Source: an uncultured Bacteroidota bacterium (GTDB lineage Bacteria; Bacteroidota; Bacteroidia; Bacteroidales; P3). Taken from it: a stretch of DNA of 38,631 nucleotides. The DNA lies in contig CACZUZ010000020.1 in NCBI GenBank assembly GCA_902784465.1, forward strand, positions 1 through 38,631. Reading direction: 5' to 3'. The notes below the pieces were generated by a model that saw nothing but the letters and a program-made list of their open reading frames with translations, had not been told where the DNA came from and searched no databases. Of the stretch, positions 4,903-31,277 are shown one piece after another (the stretch's first letter is position 1; each line of letters opens with the position of its first letter). Position numbers and translations under genes: made by a program.

Positions 4903-5073
4903 ATGACTATTGTCAAAATGGTAACATTGCTGTGCTGTGGCAGAGTTATCAGAAAGGGCGATATCGACCATGTCATTAGTCTGTTAGGCAAAGGTGATGT
5001 CGTTGTACTCACTGAACATCGTAATACGGGGGAAAGCTGTATTTGGGGATTACACTCACCAAATTTATATTGA
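4903..5073 (+). CDS. possible 56-residue ORF running into the 33-bp array
   Basis: An ATG 11 nt after the surface-protein stop opens a frame of 56 codons. The first 46 residues (MTIVKMVTLLCCGRVIRKGD..., VVVLTEHRNTGESC) have ordinary protein-like composition. The last residues are encoded by the first unit of the 33-bp array, where the frame stops. It is not recognised. It may be a real small protein, or the 5' remnant of a longer gene cut off where the repeats begin. No promoter of its own was seen. Confidence 0.25.
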   Translation: MTIVKMVTLLCCGRVIRKGDIDHVISLLGKGDVVVLTEHRNTGESCIWGLHSPNLY

Positions 5074-5254
5074 ATTTAGGGATTACATTCACTAAATTTA
5101 TATTGAATTTAGGGATTACATTCACTAAATTTATATTGAATTTGGGGATTACACTCGCTAAATTTATATTGAATTTGGGGATTACACTCACCAAATTTAT
5201 ATTGAATTTGGGGATTACACTCACCAAATTTATATTGAATTTGGGGATTATATC
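5046..5254 (+). repeat. 33-bp tandem array (6 units plus a partial) before the ATPase gene
   Basis: Six consecutive 33-bp units start at 5046, 5079, 5112, 5145, 5178 and 5211, with a partial seventh at 5244-5254. Each begins GGGATTACAC/T and contains TTTATATTGAATTT. Within a unit the arms CCAAATT and AATTTGG flank a 7-bp centre. In the second unit both arms change together to CTAAATT/AATTTAG, which keeps the dyad. Because 33 is a multiple of 3, both strands stay open across the array, but the resulting 11-residue repeats are artefacts. The last full unit ends in TTTG, 22 bp before the -7 box of the ATPase gene. Confidence 0.95.
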
Positions 5255-5292: not shown

Positions 5293-6405
5293 ATGATACA
5301 CCGTAAACTTGAGCAAGTTATTAAAAATGACTTTAATAAAAGCAAAGCCATTGTTGTGATGGGGGCTCGGCAAGTGGGGAAAACCACAGCATTGAAACAC
5401 CTTGTGGATTCAAAGAACAGCCTAATGCTCAATTGCGACGACTATGACGACCGGGTAGGACTGGAGAACAGAACATCCACTGAACTGCGCAATCTTATAG
5501 GCAACCACAAGGTGGTTATTATCGACGAGGCACAGCGCGTCCGCAATATCGGACTGGCACTTAAAATGATTGTCGACATGAACCTGCCCGTACAAATACT
5601 GGTGTCGGGATCCTCGTCGCTCTCGCTGTCCGACGAAATCAACGAGCCTGCCACGGGACGCCTGATTGAGCATGAGATGTTCCCGCTATCACTCTCCGAA
5701 CTTGCGGCACACACATCACCGCGCGAGGAGCAACGCCTCCTCGGACAACGGATGATATACGGTATGTATCCCGAGGTGGTGACAAAACCCGAAGATGCAC
5801 GGCGACTACTGATGAACCTGTCCAACAATTATCTCTATAGAGACCTGCTTGGGTATAAAGGCATCAAGAAGCCCGACACACTCCAGAAACTGGTGCGAGC
5901 GCTGGCCCTCCAGGTGGGCAGCGAGGTGTCATACAACGAATTGTCGAACCTCGTCGGTGTTGACAAAGCCACCGTGGAAAACTACATCGACCTGCTGGAG
6001 AAGTGCTATGTCTTGTTCCGCCTGCCCTCGTTCAGCAGAAACCTGCGGAGCGAGATAAAGAAAGGGAAAAAGATATACTTCTACGACAATGGCATACGAA
6101 ACGCACTTATCTCCAACTTTGCCCCGCTGGAGCAGCGCAACGATGTGGGGGTACTGTGGGAGAACCTGATGGTCAGCGAGCGAATAAAAAGAAACTCATA
6201 CACAGAGAGCTACGCCCAGATGTTTTTCTGGCGGACACAACAGCAGCAGGAGATTGACCTAATAGAGGAGATGGACGGGCAACTGACAGCCTACGAGTTC
6301 AAATGGAAAAGGGCCAATGCACGCCTTCCGAAAGCCTTTGCAGACAATTATCCCAATGTCCAGTTGCAAGTCGTCACCCCGGAAAACTACTGGGAGTTTG
6401 TATGA
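5293..6405 (+). CDS. AAA+ ATPase with C-terminal DUF4143 domain (paralog 1)
   Basis: A 370-residue P-loop ATPase. Walker A is GARQVGKTT (residues 24-32), Walker B is VVIIDEA (74-80), and VSGSSS (104-109) fits the sensor strand. Residues about 208-245 (EVSYNELSNLVGVDKATVEN) form the winged-helix-like part of DUF4143. Near the C-terminus EIDLIEE (D322) and YEFKW (E335, K337) match a PD-(D/E)XK nuclease-fold signature, a superfamily to which DUF4143 is thought to belong. The biological role of this large prokaryotic family is not settled. The gene is preceded by the 33-bp array and converges on mnmE, with only 23 bp between the stops. The paralog at 28175-29296 has the same architecture and nearly the same length. 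Both look intact. Confidence 0.9.
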   Translation: MIHRKLEQVIKNDFNKSKAIVVMGARQVGKTTALKHLVDSKNSLMLNCDDYDDRVGLENRTSTELRNLIGNHKVVIIDEAQRVRNIGLALKMIVDMNLPVQILVSGSSSLSLSDEINEPATGRLIEHEMFPLSLSELAAHTSPREEQRLLGQRMIYGMYPEVVTKPEDARRLLMNLSNNYLYRDLLGYKGIKKPDTLQKLVRALALQVGSEVSYNELSNLVGVDKATVENYIDLLEKCYVLFRLPSFSRNLRSEIKKGKKIYFYDNGIRNALISNFAPLEQRNDVGVLWENLMVSERIKRNSYTESYAQMFFWRTQQQQEIDLIEEMDGQLTAYEFKWKRANARLPKAFADNYPNVQLQVVTPENYWEFV

Positions 6406-8416: not shown

Positions 8417-11326
8417 TCACCATTCACCAATATACTTTGCCGTATATGATTTTGGGCATTTCAGCAGTTCCTCGGGGGTGCCTGCAAAGACCACGTTGCC
8501 GCCTTCGCTGCCGCCCTCGGGACCCATGTCGATAATCCAGTCGGCCTGCTTTATGATGTCTGGGTGGTGTTCGATGACAACGATTGTATGGCCATTGGCA
8601 ACAAGAGTGGCAAACGACTTGAGAAGTTTCTGAATATCATGAAAATGCAGACCTGTGGATGGTTCGTCGAAGATGAAAAGACGCGGTTGTTCTGACGTGC
8701 CGCGAGTGAGGAAGGATGCAAGCTTGATACGCTGTGCCTCGCCGCCGCTAAGAGAGCTGGAACTCTGCCCCAGTTTCAGGTAGCCAAGACCCACATCCTG
8801 AAGGGGTTGTAAGCGGCTCTCTATCTGTCGGCAGGTGGGCTTGAAAGCATCTTCTGCCACGTCGGGGTTGAAGAAATCGACAGCCTGGTCGACAGTCATA
8901 TCCAACACCTCGCTGACATTCTTGCCATGGTATAGCACCTCGAGCGTGTCGCTCTGGAAACGAGTACCGTGACATTCGTCGCAAACCAGATGCACGTCGG
9001 CCATAAACTGCATGCCTATAGTGACATAGCCCTCACCCTGACAGTTTTCGCAACGTCCACCCTCGACATTGAACGAGAAATAGCCGGCCTTGTAGCCGCG
9101 CGACTTGGAAAGGGGTTGCATGGCATAGAGCTGGCGTATCTCATCGTAGGCTTTCATATAGGTGGCGGGGTTGCTGCGCGAAGAACGGCCTATAGGGTTC
9201 TGGTCGACAAGCTCGACACCGGATATGCGACTGATGTCGCCACCCACCGAACGGCACTTGCCTACGTAAGCGTCGCTGCCGTCGAAGCGCTTCTGCAACA
9301 CGTCGTAAAGCACATGCTTCACCAGGCTGGTCTTGCCCGAGCCCGAGACGCCTGTCACGACCGTGAAGACACCAAGAGGGAAGTCTACATCAATGCGTTT
9401 CAGGTTGTTGCAATAGACGCCGCGCAACTCGATGCGGTCACGCCACGGGCGACGCGATTTCGGCACCTCGATGCGGCGTTCACCTAGCAGGTATTGAGCA
9501 GTAAGGGAATTCTTGATGTCGTAATTAGAATTGAGAATCATCTCATTCTCAACCCTTGTCTTGGAATTTTCAATCTCCATTACCACCTCGCCACCAAGGC
9601 GACCGGCACCGGGGCCGATGTCGATAATGTAGTCGGCAGCACGGATAATGTCCTCGTCGTGTTCGACGACGATGACAGTGTTGCCAAGGTCTCTCAGATG
9701 TTTGAGTACGCCGATGAGTTGCTCCGTGTCGCGCGAATGGAGACCGATGGAAGGCTCGTCGAGGATATACATCGAGCCAACCAGCGAACTTCCTAGTGAG
9801 GTAGCCAGGTTGATACGCTGGCTCTCGCCACCGCTGAGGGTGTTAGACAAACGGCTCAGAGTCAGATAGCCAAGTCCCACATCCAGCAGGTACCCCACAC
9901 GGTTATGGAGTTCCTTGAGGATGCGGTCGGTGAGTTTTCGCTCGTAGTCTGTCAATGTAGGCAACTGCGTCCCGCAGTCGGCTACAATTTCATCCAAGAA
10001 TTTGGCCAGTTCCTTGACAGGCATATCGGCTAGCTCGGAAATCGACCGACCGCAAACCTTCACATATTGGGCATCTTTGCGGAGTCGAGAGCCGTGACAG
10101 TCGGGACAGGTAGTCTTGCCACGATAGCGGGCAAGCATGACTCGATACTGAATCTTATAGCTTTGTGACTCAACCCATTCGAAGAAGCCATCGATGCCAG
10201 GCCATTTGCTGTCGCCATGCCATAGGAGGTTGCGTTCGGCGGCGGTGAGGTCGCAATAAGGAGTGTGGATGGGGAAGTCGTTGTTGGCCGTATAACGGAT
10301 GAAATGAGTCTTCCACTCCGACATCTTTTCGCCCTTCCAGCAGACCACAGCATCGTCATAGACAGAGAGTTGCTTGTTTGGCACAACGATGTCCTCATCG
10401 ATGCCGATAACGTTGCCATAACCCTGGCAACGAGGGCATGCACCATACGGATTATTGAAACTAAAGAAGTTAGGGTTGGGCTTTTCGAACGTGATGCCAT
10501 CAGCCTCGAAACGGTTCGAGAAGTCTGCGGTGACGACACCGCCGCTTCCATTTTTCTCTTCGTTTTCAAGCGGAAGCGCCATAACGCTGCAGGCTCCGCG
10601 TCCTTCGAAGAAAGCGGTCTGCACCGACTCCGAGACCCTTGCCGTCTGGTCATCGTCGCCGTGGCGGAGAGTGATACGGTCGACGAGAAGGTCGATATTT
10701 AATGGTGAATTGTGAATTGTGAATTGTGAATTGTCGGAGAGGAGGTCTTCGATCTTGACCACCGTTCCGGCGATGGAGACGCGCATGAAACCCTCCTGGT
10801 GGAGTATTTCGAGCTGTGCACGCAAGGGTCGCTTCTCTGTTGCCACCAGTGGCGAGAGAAGCATTATCTTGCGGCCCTCCTCAAGGGAGTAGATATAGTC
10901 TACGACATCGGAGACGCTGTGACGCTTCACCTCCACGCCGGAGACTGGCGAGAAAGTGCGACCTATGCGTGCAAAAAGCAGTTTCAGGTATTCGTAGATT
11001 TCGGTCGAAGTGCCAACAGTGGAGCGGGGATTGGAAGTGTTGACCTTCTGTTCGATGGCGATGGCTGGAGCCACACCGAGGATATAGTCGACCTCGGGTT
11101 TGCTCATGCGGCCCATGAACTGACGGGCATAGCTGCTGAGGCTCTCCACATAGCGGCGCTGTCCTTCGGCATAAAGAGTGTCGAACGCCAGCGATGACTT
11201 ACCGCTGCCGCTCAATCCCGTAATCACAACCAGCTTGTTGCGTGGTATGCGTACATCGATGTTCTTGAGGTTGTTAACCCTCGCACCTTTTATGATGATA
11301 TAGTTGTCTTCCTCTTTCTTTTTCAA
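8417..11326 (-). CDS. uvrA: excinuclease ABC subunit A (UvrA)
   Basis: The damage-recognition ATPase of nucleotide excision repair, which loads UvrB on distorted DNA. At 969 residues it is slightly longer than the usual 940 or so. It has two ABC modules: Walker [10 protein letters not shown] (37-45) with LSGGESQRI, and GVSGSGKTS with LSGGEAQRI and FDEPSTGLH. Zinc-binding clusters include [18 protein letters not shown] and CDECHG. The start is TTG at 11326, since an in-frame stop lies just upstream and no other start fits the N-terminus. Two oddities are seen. Residues about 196-211 ([15 protein letters not shown]) are encoded by four perfect GTGAATT units. An extra stretch ([16 protein letters not shown]) sits before SLTAQYLLG and contains a hairpin at 9531-9552. 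The last codons and stop also lie in heptad repeats. Confidence 0.97.
9531..9552. repeat. perfect inverted repeat inside uvrA
   Basis: TTGAGAAT at 9531-9538 and ATTCTCAA at 9545-9552 form an 8-bp stem around a 6-nt loop. It lies in the stretch encoding an extra segment of UvrA before the conserved SLTAQYLLG, so it probably marks an in-frame insertion tolerated in a surface loop. Confidence 0.5.
10705..10732 (-). repeat. four perfect GTGAATT heptads inside uvrA
   Basis: Units at 10705, 10712, 10719 and 10726 read GTGAATT on the plus strand (AATTCAC on the coding strand). They encode part of [10 protein letters not shown] in UvrA. The unit length of 7 is not a multiple of 3, so gain or loss of one unit would shift the reading frame. 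The same heptad occurs in several spacers of this window. Confidence 0.9.
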
Positions 11327-28174: not shown

Positions 28175-29296
28175 CTACAGCAAGAACTCGTCAATATTCT
28201 TCGGTGTCACCTCAAGAAAAGTCGCACCAAGGTATGCTGTAGCGAAATTCTTCGGGATAACAGCTTGTTTACGAGCATTGTATTTAAACTCGTAAGCATG
28301 CAAAACACCGTCATATTCTTCCAAATAATCAATCTCTTTTTGCTCACGTGTACGCCAAAAATAGCTGTTGCACCAATGTTTAGCATATTCGTTACGCTTC
28401 ACCCTCTCGGAAATAACAAAATTTTCCCATAGCGCACCAGTGTCCATTCTTATCTCCATCGGTGAAAAAGCAGATATCAGAGCATTGCGGACCCCATTGT
28501 CATAAAAATAAATCTTTTTACTGTGCTTCAATTCGTTACGCATATTCCGACTGAAAGACCGCAATCTGAATATAACATACGATTTCTCGAGCAAGTCAAT
28601 ATACGTCTCAACGGTCTTGGCATCAATACCAACTGTTGATGCCAGTTCTGAGTACGAGACCTGGGAGCCTATCTGATAAGCAATAGCCTGCAATAATGCA
28701 AGAATCTTGTCGTTTTTCTTCACCAACCCAAAAGTGAAAATATCTTTATACAGATAGCCATCTGTCAATTCCTTCAATACGTCACGCTCACTTCCAGGAG
28801 AAGTCACCACCTCTGGATAATAACCATACACAAGACGATGGTTCAATAATCTCATTTCCTCAATCAGCCCATTTTCACGAACCATCTCGGAAAAAGAGAG
28901 CGGGAACATCTTGTATTCACGTTTTCTGCCAGTTAATGGCTCGTTCAAGACATTTGCCAAGTCAAAAGAAGAACTACCAGTGGCAACAAGTTGAACTTCT
29001 GGTATTTGATCAGTGACCAACTTCATTTTCAATCCGATGTCAGCTATCCGCTGAGCCTCGTCAATAACCAATATACGCTTATTTCCTATCAATTCCCGCA
29101 ACCGAGAGGAAGTCACATTCTCCATTATTGCTCTGATGTCCGGTTCGTCACCATTCATCCACTTTACATCATCCCTTCCTGAGAATAGTTGTTTCAATAG
29201 AGTTGTTTTTCCGATCTGACGGCATCCCATCAAAACAATCGCTTTACCTTTAAACAACTGATTTTTAACAGTATCAAACAATATTCTATTTACCAT
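28175..29296 (-). CDS. AAA+ ATPase with C-terminal DUF4143 domain (paralog 2)
   Basis: A 373-residue homolog of the protein at 5293-6405. Walker A is GCRQIGKTT (24-32), Walker B is ILVIDEA (75-81), and ATGSSS is the sensor strand. The DUF4143 part has SQVSYSELASTVGIDAKTVE and FYDNGVRNALIS. Near the end EIDYLEE (D323) and YEFKY (E336, K338) keep the PD-(D/E)XK-type residues. It aligns colinearly with paralog 1 throughout. The gene is visibly richer in A and T than its neighbours prfA and mnmA, which suggests recent acquisition. The ATG at 29296 lies about 20 bp after a perfect -7 box. Two palindromes sit immediately upstream of that box. The biological role is not established. Confidence 0.9.
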   Translation of the reverse strand: MVNRILFDTVKNQLFKGKAIVLMGCRQIGKTTLLKQLFSGRDDVKWMNGDEPDIRAIMENVTSSRLRELIGNKRILVIDEAQRIADIGLKMKLVTDQIPEVQLVATGSSSFDLANVLNEPLTGRKREYKMFPLSFSEMVRENGLIEEMRLLNHRLVYGYYPEVVTSPGSERDVLKELTDGYLYKDIFTFGLVKKNDKILALLQAIAYQIGSQVSYSELASTVGIDAKTVETYIDLLEKSYVIFRLRSFSRNMRNELKHSKKIYFYDNGVRNALISAFSPMEIRMDTGALWENFVISERVKRNEYAKHWCNSYFWRTREQKEIDYLEEYDGVLHAYEFKYNARKQAVIPKNFATAYLGATFLEVTPKNIDEFLL

Positions 29297-29316
29297 AGCT
29301 TCTTATGTTTAAAGTG

Positions 29317-29324
29317 CAAAAATA
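29317..29324 (-). promoter_or_regulatory. -7 box of the second DUF4143 ATPase gene
   Basis: TATTTTTG on the minus strand, 20 bp before the ATG at 29296, is a perfect TAnnTTTG. The palindromic units begin 2 bp upstream of it and cover the spacer and the -33 position, so occupation of the palindromes should block or alter transcription. Confidence 0.65.
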
Positions 29325-29326
29325 CA

Positions 29327-29386
29327 ACTTTTCGGGAATGTATTCCCGAAAAGTTTAAACTTTTGCGGAATACATTCCCGAAAAGT
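29327..29386. repeat. two tandem 28-bp palindromes before the second ATPase gene
   Basis: Unit A (29327-29354) has arms ACTTTTCGGGAAT and ATTCCCGAAAAGT around GT and is a perfect palindrome. Unit B (29359-29386) has the same right arm and a left arm ACTTTTGCGGAAT with two changed bases. A TTAA links them, and AAAAGTTTAAACTTTT (29349-29364) across the join is also palindromic. The start-to-start period is 32 bp. The layout resembles tandem operator sites or a small repeat array. It is unrelated in sequence to the 33-bp array of paralog 1. Confidence 0.95.
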
Positions 29387-30107: not shown

Positions 30108-31277
30108 TTACGCAATCATGCCGGAGGCAACAACAAGACGGGCGTCGCAGTCGTAGATGGTAGCATACTGTCCAGCTGCGATACCTTGTATTTTGGTGTC
30201 GCTACTGAGGTGGTAGACAAGACCATAGACAGGGTCTTCCCTTTTGGTGAGACGACCGTGGGCAAACTCAGGGGTGTGGCGGATTTTGAACTGCACCTCG
30301 ACCGACCAACCGTCATCAGGGCGACCCTCCTTGTCCGCTTTCTCCCATATATTTGCACTGAGATAGTGGAAGCCCAGCAGGTCTATCTCCTTGCCGTACT
30401 GAGCCTCGGGCGTATATCCCTGGCTTACATACAGCACATTCTCTCCGATATCCTTCTTGACTACAAACCAGGGGCCTCCGCTGAGGAAAAGGCCTTTGCG
30501 CTGCCCTATGGTGTGGAACCAATAGCCCTTGTGGGTGCCCAGCACCTTGCCCGTTTCCAACTCGACAATCTTACCTTCTCGCTCGCCGAGGTAGCGACGC
30601 AGGAAGTCGTTGTAGTTGATTTTACCCAAGAAACAGATACCCTGGCTGTCCTTTCGGTCGGCCGACGGGAGATGAGCCTCGTGGGCAATCTGGCGGACCT
30701 CGTTTTTCATCAGATGGCCGATGGGGAACATCGCCTTGGCAATCTGGGGATAGGTGAGCTGGGTGAGGAAGTCGGTCTGATCCTTGATGGGGTCCTTCGC
30801 CGTAGCGAGAAAAATTGCTTGATTGTTTGATTGTTTGATTGTTTGAGTATTGGTTGCGTCAGCACTCAGGCATTCAGGCATTAACACATTCAAGCATTCT
30901 GTACGAGCGTAGTGGCCTGTGGCAATGCGGTCATAGTCTTTGCCGCATTTGTCGTCGAAAGCGCCAAACTTAATGAGGCGGTTGCACATCACGTCAGGAT
31001 TGGGAGTCAGTCCTTTGCGGACCGACTCGATGGTGTAGCTCACCACGTTGTCCCAGTACTCCTTGTGGAGGTTGACCTCCTCGAAGCGACAGCCGTACTT
31101 CTTGGCAATATACGATGTTATCTCAATATCCTCCTCTGCGGGGCAGTCGATATAGCCCTCGGCATCCTCCATGCCGATGCGGATATAGAAAATGTCGGGG
31201 TTATAGCCCTGTTCCTTGAGGAGATGGACAACGACGCTACTGTCGACGCCACCCGAAACCAATGCTGCTATGGTCAT
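30108..31277 (-). CDS. mnmA: tRNA-specific 2-thiouridylase MnmA
   Basis: Thiolates C2 of the wobble uridine of tRNAs for Lys, Glu and Gln, using ATP and a persulfide relay. At 389 residues it is longer than the usual 355-370. The PP-loop SGGVDSS is at 8-14. The two catalytic cysteines are C98 in PNPDVMCN and C215 in GICFLGK. Residues about 127-156 ([20 protein letters not shown] then [10 protein letters not shown]) form an extra segment encoded by two octanucleotide repeats, placed between ATGHYAR and the conserved [11 protein letters not shown]. The remainder looks intact. It complements MnmE (6429-7793) at the same nucleotide. Confidence 0.95.
30815..30899 (-). repeat. octanucleotide repeats inside mnmA
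   Basis: Plus-strand TTGCTTGA followed by three TTGTTTGA units (30815-30846), then after about 17 bp the units ACTCAGGC, ATTCAGGC, ATTAACAC, ATTCAAGC and ATTC (30864-30899). Both have an 8-bp period. They encode an in-frame extra segment of MnmA. A change of one unit would shift the frame. Confidence 0.85.

Follow-up and report, generated by a model that had tools for sequence, protein, structure and literature searches.

In restriction-modification systems with C-proteins and in autoregulated toxin-antitoxin operons, tandem palindromes at a promoter are bound by the product of the same operon; however, C-proteins and antitoxins are small dedicated DNA-binding proteins, not AAA+ ATPase-nucleases. 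The locus described here, which encodes the ATPase-nuclease P0001, may work in the same manner by analogy, and no homology to these proteins is claimed. Repression through repeated promoter sites, as is proposed here, has also been described for a restriction-modification defence island controlled by RptR; in the passages of that account (PMC12255303), RptR is a small regulator in its own right, whose minimal site is a 6-bp palindrome, whereas P0001 would combine regulator and effector in one protein whose site changes with the protein.

The closest relatives of P0001 itself are known as a candidate defence family. P0001 matches the PADLOC PDC-S01 profile PDLC04789 over residues 1-372 (E 4.1e-159), and the passages of PMC12988326 describe PDC-S01 as an ATPase fused to PD-(D/E)XK, i.e., the same protein family. 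PDC-S01 is ranked there fourth among the most common defences of all prokaryotes, most PDCs still awaiting validation, and in the passages of PMC13356809 it is the most frequent individual locus in rumen genomes; no mechanism of PDC-S01 is given in the literature passages and abstracts. Unlike the account of the P0001 locus given here, the PDC-S01 passages of PMC12988326 contain no operator, autoregulation or DNA-recognition rule. Similarly, TT_P0211 of Thermus thermophilus is, like P0001, an AAA_14-DUF4143 protein with HTH motifs, and its RNA is up 6.6-fold with plasmid DNA in Argonaute-positive cells, with no changes above 4-fold in the ago deletion strain; the passages of PMC4406477 on it contain no operator, unlike the P0001 locus. 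A literature search, mainly of titles and abstracts, found no operator or recognition rule for DUF4143, COG1373, PDC-S01 or AAA_14/PF13173.

P0001 is encoded on the minus strand of the window, by which is meant the whole stretch of 38,631 nucleotides that was analysed, from an uncultured Bacteroidota bacterium (contig CACZUZ010000020.1). The features of its locus, where P0001 is the second of two paralogs (paralog 2), are as follows:

28175-29296, minus strand: P0001, a 373-aa protein with an AAA_14 ATPase, a winged HTH and a DUF4143 PD-(D/E)XK-like nuclease, from domain matches and the model
28883-29248, minus strand: AAA_14 domain, residues 17-138, with conserved motifs that we take to be Walker A and Walker B (DE79-80), and conserved S108
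28583-28621, minus strand: codons of the predicted recognition helix 226-238; Lys227 (codon 28616-28618) is associated with G at -6 of each half-site
28283-28426, minus strand: nuclease core with E291, D323 and E336-x-K338; residue 317 lies in the turn before the D323 strand
29317-29324, minus strand: TATTTTTG, which we take to be a Bacteroidetes-type -7 box, 2 bp from the proximal palindrome
29327-29354, minus strand: proximal operator palindrome, ACTTTTCGGGAATACATTCCCGAAAAGT on the minus strand, with 14-bp arms (100% complementary) and a 2-nt centre
29359-29386, minus strand: distal operator palindrome of 28 bp, 32 bp from the proximal one, start to start

The domain assignments exceed both Pfam gathering cut-offs (AAA_14, 94.4 bits against 27; DUF4143, 141.9 bits against 28.1), and an AlphaFold model of P0001 (pLDDT 90.2, pTM 0.90) places residue 227 at the N-terminus of helix 226-238 in a winged-helix arrangement. 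The core of the PD-(D/E)XK superfamily follows the order alpha-beta-beta-beta-alpha-beta, and this order, along with E, D and E-x-K, is present in the predicted nuclease as read from the model without structural superposition, its elements being H286-304 (E291), E310-316, E321-328 (D323), E331-337 (E336, then K338), H349-354 and E359-363. E291, D323 and E336 are invariant among 65 sequences, and K338 is conserved in at least 90% of them. No solved structure of a P0001 relative was found by sequence. Among the 50 PDB rows listed by Foldseek, most are AAA+ or STAND proteins (RuvB, Orc, clamp loaders, Apaf-1, Avs5) at low TM scores, and two are Cdn1, a CRISPR-associated nuclease, at TM 0.22 or less; the fold search is therefore neutral, speaking neither for nor against the nuclease assignment.

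The first-pass annotation had described two 28-bp palindromes with a 32-bp period lying 2 bp from the -7 box, and both the repeats and their position were confirmed: no match to the palindrome pair was found in 100 dinucleotide shuffles of the window, and the 60-bp block holding both palindromes is itself an inverted repeat with 30-nt arms (93%). The same annotation had called this array unrelated to that of the first paralog, which turned out to be wrong. The features of paralog 1 are as follows:

5041-5250, plus strand: paralog-1 operator array, 33-bp period, of a motif family common to paralog 2
5293-6405, plus strand: paralog-1 ATPase, 370 aa, 52% identical to paralog 2

One position matrix scores both arrays (the paralog-1 sites shown reach 19.7-22.5 bits and those of paralog 2 reach 21.9-22.4), although the two window paralogs were among the genes used to refine it, and the two cores share 15 of 24 positions in an ungapped alignment by eye. 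Judged from these bases, the paralog-1 array is a diverged version of the paralog-2 motif, within one motif family of 33- versus 32-bp period. A search of the own genome (2.53 Mb, 84% complete) for the 24-bp core of paralog 2, allowing up to three mismatches, gives its two sites only, while the reversed control pattern has no match; the core of paralog 1 likewise occurs at its own locus only, with six sites, to which the matrix adds a degenerate proximal one. As neither window operator has extra copies in the own genome, either as a regulon or as element ends, private autoregulation is favoured over a regulon, and the regulon or element-end reading was rejected.

The motif is widespread in the family. 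Among 41 homologs of 320 bits or more, it reads roughly AATTTT[GT][GT][GC]GATTA in the left half and TAATC[C][AC][AC]AAAATT in the right half, and is usually present twice at 32-33 bp spacing. A matrix was built from 34 of these genes (39 of the 41 scored at least 8 with the matrix, and 34 of those remained below 90% identity) and applied to an enlarged set of 204 homologs of 320 bits or more, which was drawn from the best 80 of 565 relatives, with loci from named genomes, and from genomes of the window's order, where 179 of the 393 searched gave a match at E 1e-60 or better and loci were taken from part of the matching genomes. Positions +-5 to +-8 were masked in the site search, so that base choice at these positions could not sway site selection, and the null was the 95% level of three shuffles of each upstream region. 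As a result, the motif exceeded the null in 152 of 204 homologs (about 10 expected), including 117 of 163 genes outside the matrix-building set; 80 of these 117 have a second site, which lies exactly 32 bp away in 60 of the 80. Many of the 52 homologs under the threshold carry diverged palindromes by eye, which were not counted. Homologs under 320 bits (e.g., L055, L057, L078-L100) and L060, which has no start, were outside motif scoring. The 152 genes were reduced to 131 by a 90% identity filter (29 from the first sets, 102 later), and the counts on the recognition code use these 131.

Promoter repeats also extend to more distant DUF4143 genes. The own genome (G000, 2.53 Mb) holds 33 DUF4143 matches (L001-L030), several of which are fragments or contain internal stops (L024, L025); so many matches, several of them broken, in one genome of this size suggest fast gain and loss of DUF4143 genes. 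With a cut-off of z above 3 relative to dinucleotide shuffles, 17 of 20 DUF4143 promoters have strong direct repeats or dyads, after exclusion of fragments and of matches with no usable ATG start or no locus; among 81 control promoters, taken from twelve stretches of 20 kb in this genome, 12 have them (Mann-Whitney p 1.2e-8). Outside the P0001-like subfamily, these repeats are mostly direct, not palindromic; for instance, the longer DUF4143 proteins (about 400-450 aa) L006, L010, L013, L016, L019 and L020 have tandem direct repeats at their promoters.

The two halves of the operator vary together. At +-6, the half-sites are complementary in 98 of 131 genes versus 46.0 in shuffles (z 11), with G.C, C.G and T.A pairs all common among these genes of less than 90% protein identity; covariation is also seen at +-13 (z 7.2), +-5 (z 5.4), +-7 (z 4.5) and +-8 (z 3.4), all of these values, including that at +-6, being uncorrected for kinship. 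Sequence statistics thus show the operator to be selected as a two-fold DNA dyad that would be read symmetrically. An RNA hairpin should favour G.T over A.C mismatches, whereas a DNA site of a symmetric dimer should not; the first 34-gene set leaned to G.T (24 versus 15 A.C, or 59 versus 35 over all 68 sites), but in the 131 genes the mismatches at +-5 to +-8 are balanced (40 G.T, 49 A.C), which argues for a DNA dyad and not an RNA hairpin.

The base at -6 follows one residue of the ATPase. Residue 227 is its best predictor among 300 variable protein columns (MI z 22.0, next 8.6), with K-G in 120/130, E-C in 32/38, N-T in 19/26 and Q-C in 13/22 half-sites when both halves of the 131 genes are counted. 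Taking K, E, N and Q genes together, the coded base stands in at least one half in 100 of 108 and in both halves in 84. Genes not in the discovery set have the coded base in one or both halves in 50/51 cases for K, 17/18 for E, 10/12 for N, 8/10 for Q and 3/3 for V, and a stricter hold-out, without genes 75% or more identical to the first set, gives K 44/45, E 17/18, N 5/6 and Q 5/7. When close relatives are paired without overlap (distance up to 0.45, measured outside the helix), the base at -6 is shared in 46 of 52 pairs with the same residue and in 3 of 32 with a different code. Tree tests on supported branches lean the same way as the code, with too few pairs for significance: of 5 pairs for K versus GG, 3.7 go in the same direction and 0.0 in the other (median p 0.125); the corresponding figures are 2.6 and 0.4 of 6 for E versus CC, 3.0 and 0.0 of 5 for N versus TT, and 1.4 and 0.3 of 5 for Q versus any C. 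A third close paralog of the own genome (L005, identical to L074), treated as a duplicate region and absent from the counts, has Lys227 and a TTGGATTATAATCCAA palindrome, which fits the code.

The amino acid-base code appears to hold beyond one phylum, as judged by eye from 14 single examples, which include a plasmid pair, a faecal phage record and records named Spirochaetes, Desulfobacteria, KSB1, Delongbacteria, Termititenax and others. Most of these examples seem to agree with the code, some in one half-site only, and several are MAGs that may be mis-binned. Among homologs below the motif threshold, the His227 proteins L220, L225 and L230 have palindromes of another specificity by eye, TGAGTTATAACTCA-like, and L054, L246 and L251, with Asn-Lys-x-Thr helices, have TAATGACC-like ones; both groups are possible extra letters of the recognition code.

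On the scale of whole sequences, operator distance correlates with protein distance in Mantel tests (whole protein and wHTH, rho 0.23-0.38; p 0.002, the lowest value that 500 permutations allow). The AAA part (p 0.002) and the nuclease (p 0.002-0.006) are also significant, with the 141-190 linker at p 0.048-0.35; hence the Mantel test fails to single out the wHTH, which the residue scan does. As the best predictor of the base is a residue in the predicted recognition helix of the ATPase, we hold it very probable that the ATPase itself binds the operator and that each ATPase reads its own; that its own DNA-binding domain reads the dyad at its own promoter is indicated by covariation throughout. 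The expectation that repeat type would follow the protein or its winged-helix residues was thereby borne out, by Mantel test and more sharply by residue 227, and the general design proposed earlier, in which each ATPase carries a private repeat, gains support from the motif counts and the promoter comparison above. Of the roles suggested in the first-pass annotation, autoregulation fits best, while a restriction-like or partition-like role found no direct support. Selection for orthogonality is likewise unsupported, as the operators of 25 within-genome paralog pairs are no more different than those of matched between-genome pairs (p 0.41).

The outer edge of the operator tracks a second residue. 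The turn that joins the first two strands of the nuclease domain holds residue 317, which varies with +-12 (z 11.9) and +-13 (z 9.4), and C at -13 goes with Lys317 in 50/76 and with Arg317 in 11/20 half-sites. On supported branches, Lys or Arg317 versus C at -13 gives 6.8 pairs in the same direction and 0.2 in the other of 12 (median p 0.0156); for Lys317 and TT at +-12, the same test falls short of significance (4.5 versus 1.2 of 10). This tracking is suggestive of an arrangement in which the nuclease domain may lie over the operator edge.

The operator and gene together apparently form a conserved unit of about 1.2 kb that is transferred between genomes, judging from alignments of relatives. 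From 144 pairs of 80-100% identity, 120 had enough flank on both sides, and in 87 of these the alignable block starts 50-120 bp upstream of the ATG, close to the outer edge of the operators, and stops no more than 100 bp from the stop codon, the others keeping longer shared flanks; pairs overlap and are not independent. For example, the alignable block of L111 and L114 (96% identical) runs from -84 to +20. The window copy is flanked by prfA and mnmA, and a scan of 8 nearby ORFs showed no defence genes among its near neighbours; location among known defence genes, the basis of the PDC candidate list and not of the profile, is thus not a property of this copy. We put the chances that the module is a defence system at about even. 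A search of 25 same-genus genomes, the own genome among them, recovered prfA in 23, and the ATPase was absent from the DNA around prfA in all 22 others, some of these loci ending at contig ends. Gene order after prfA is not conserved among same-genus genomes; in G005, prfA and mnmA stand side by side in convergent orientation, with less than 60 bp and no ATPase between them. These observations are consistent with, and not proof of, insertion of the ATPase between prfA and mnmA. Plasmid and phage records also contain matches, in 5 of 72,556 (E 1e-60) and 4 of 50,697 (E 1e-20), respectively.

Elsewhere in the own genome, L006, L009 and L016 (G000:C38, C52, C55) are different ATPases with different private repeats and one shared upstream flank (up to 119 bp, partial at contig ends), which has five full or partial copies in the genome, also at C21:1-83 and C55:1634-1677, and looks like a common insertion context. 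Within the window, short 8-bp tandem repeats at 30814-30846 and 30862-30899 lie in the mnmA-like frame 30108-31277, which a change in their copy number would shift, and a 7-bp unit is repeated 4.9 times at 10701-10734 within the UvrA-like frame 8417-11326.

Taken as a whole, the evidence is best explained by the palindromes being the private operator of the ATPase, which we consider probable. After the operator, 102 of 131 homologs have a TAnn(n)TTTG box, against 5 of 131 with shuffled tails; the gap between them is most commonly 2 bp (31/102) and in 18/102 is 33-35 bp, about one period. The -33 region of the promoter would then fall inside the operator, so that repression by occlusion is favoured, and autorepression is rather likely. 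In the alternative of autoactivation, the operator-bound ATPase next to the -7 box would recruit RNA polymerase in a positive feedback switch; activators also use a position directly upstream of the -7 box, where the operator commonly lies, but a few homologs have it at or past the promoter, with the dyad centre 14 bp (L043) and 21 bp (L036) before the ATG, the box overlapping the operator in 2/102, and TATAAT lying within a dyad half in L146 by eye. Position by itself does not tell repression from activation; we consider autoactivation unlikely. Less likely again is that the palindromes serve the movement of the ATPase-nuclease, as mobile-element ends or as a homing target that it recognizes or cleaves. 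The conserved nuclease core, the apparent transfer of operator and gene as a unit and the tracking of +-13 by a nuclease-domain residue would all suit such a role, but the sites of the window paralogs were found only upstream of the gene, with none downstream or elsewhere in the genome, and the -7 box follows the operator in most homologs.

Type III toxin-antitoxin systems carry a repeat RNA upstream of the effector, and the tandem 32-33-bp repeats directly upstream of this gene, with the excess of G.T in the first 34 genes, recall that arrangement. However, the mismatches are balanced in the larger set, the operators are mostly upstream of the -7 box and hence outside the transcript, and base choice follows a recognition-helix residue; an RNA-level function is accordingly most improbable, and the RNA-hairpin or type III reading was rejected on the balanced mismatches and the promoter position. 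It is just as hard to believe that another host regulator reads the site and that the link to the ATPase is a coincidence: the evidence for autoregulation comes from sequence, which leaves some room for such a regulator, but -6 follows residue 227 of the ATPase far better than any other of the 300 columns, and the match is found also outside the discovery set and, by eye, in the examples from other phyla.

Under autorepression by a private operator, two dimers would bind the same face of the DNA, 32 bp being close to three helical turns; they would lie over the -33 region, reach up to the -7 box and keep the gene repressed. In response to a trigger linked with foreign DNA or the ATP state, the protein would leave the operator and its level would rise, whereupon its nuclease domain would act, the whole being a single-gene defence module (PDC-S01). 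In its fullest form, which we advance tentatively and hold to be doubtful, one polypeptide would be sensor, repressor and nuclease effector at once, with AAA+ dimers parked on a private tandem operator, the winged helix reading -6 through residue 227 and the nuclease domain reading the edge (residue 317 versus +-13), so that the operator keeps both the nuclease and the gene in check. If this is true, a short code would let dozens of modules share one genome and be re-addressed by single substitutions. For the PDC-S01 family, the locus offers a testable handle, namely where the protein would bind, which residue would read which base and a probable self-control; a readable code together with an operator makes binding, induction and nuclease-release experiments possible on many of its members.
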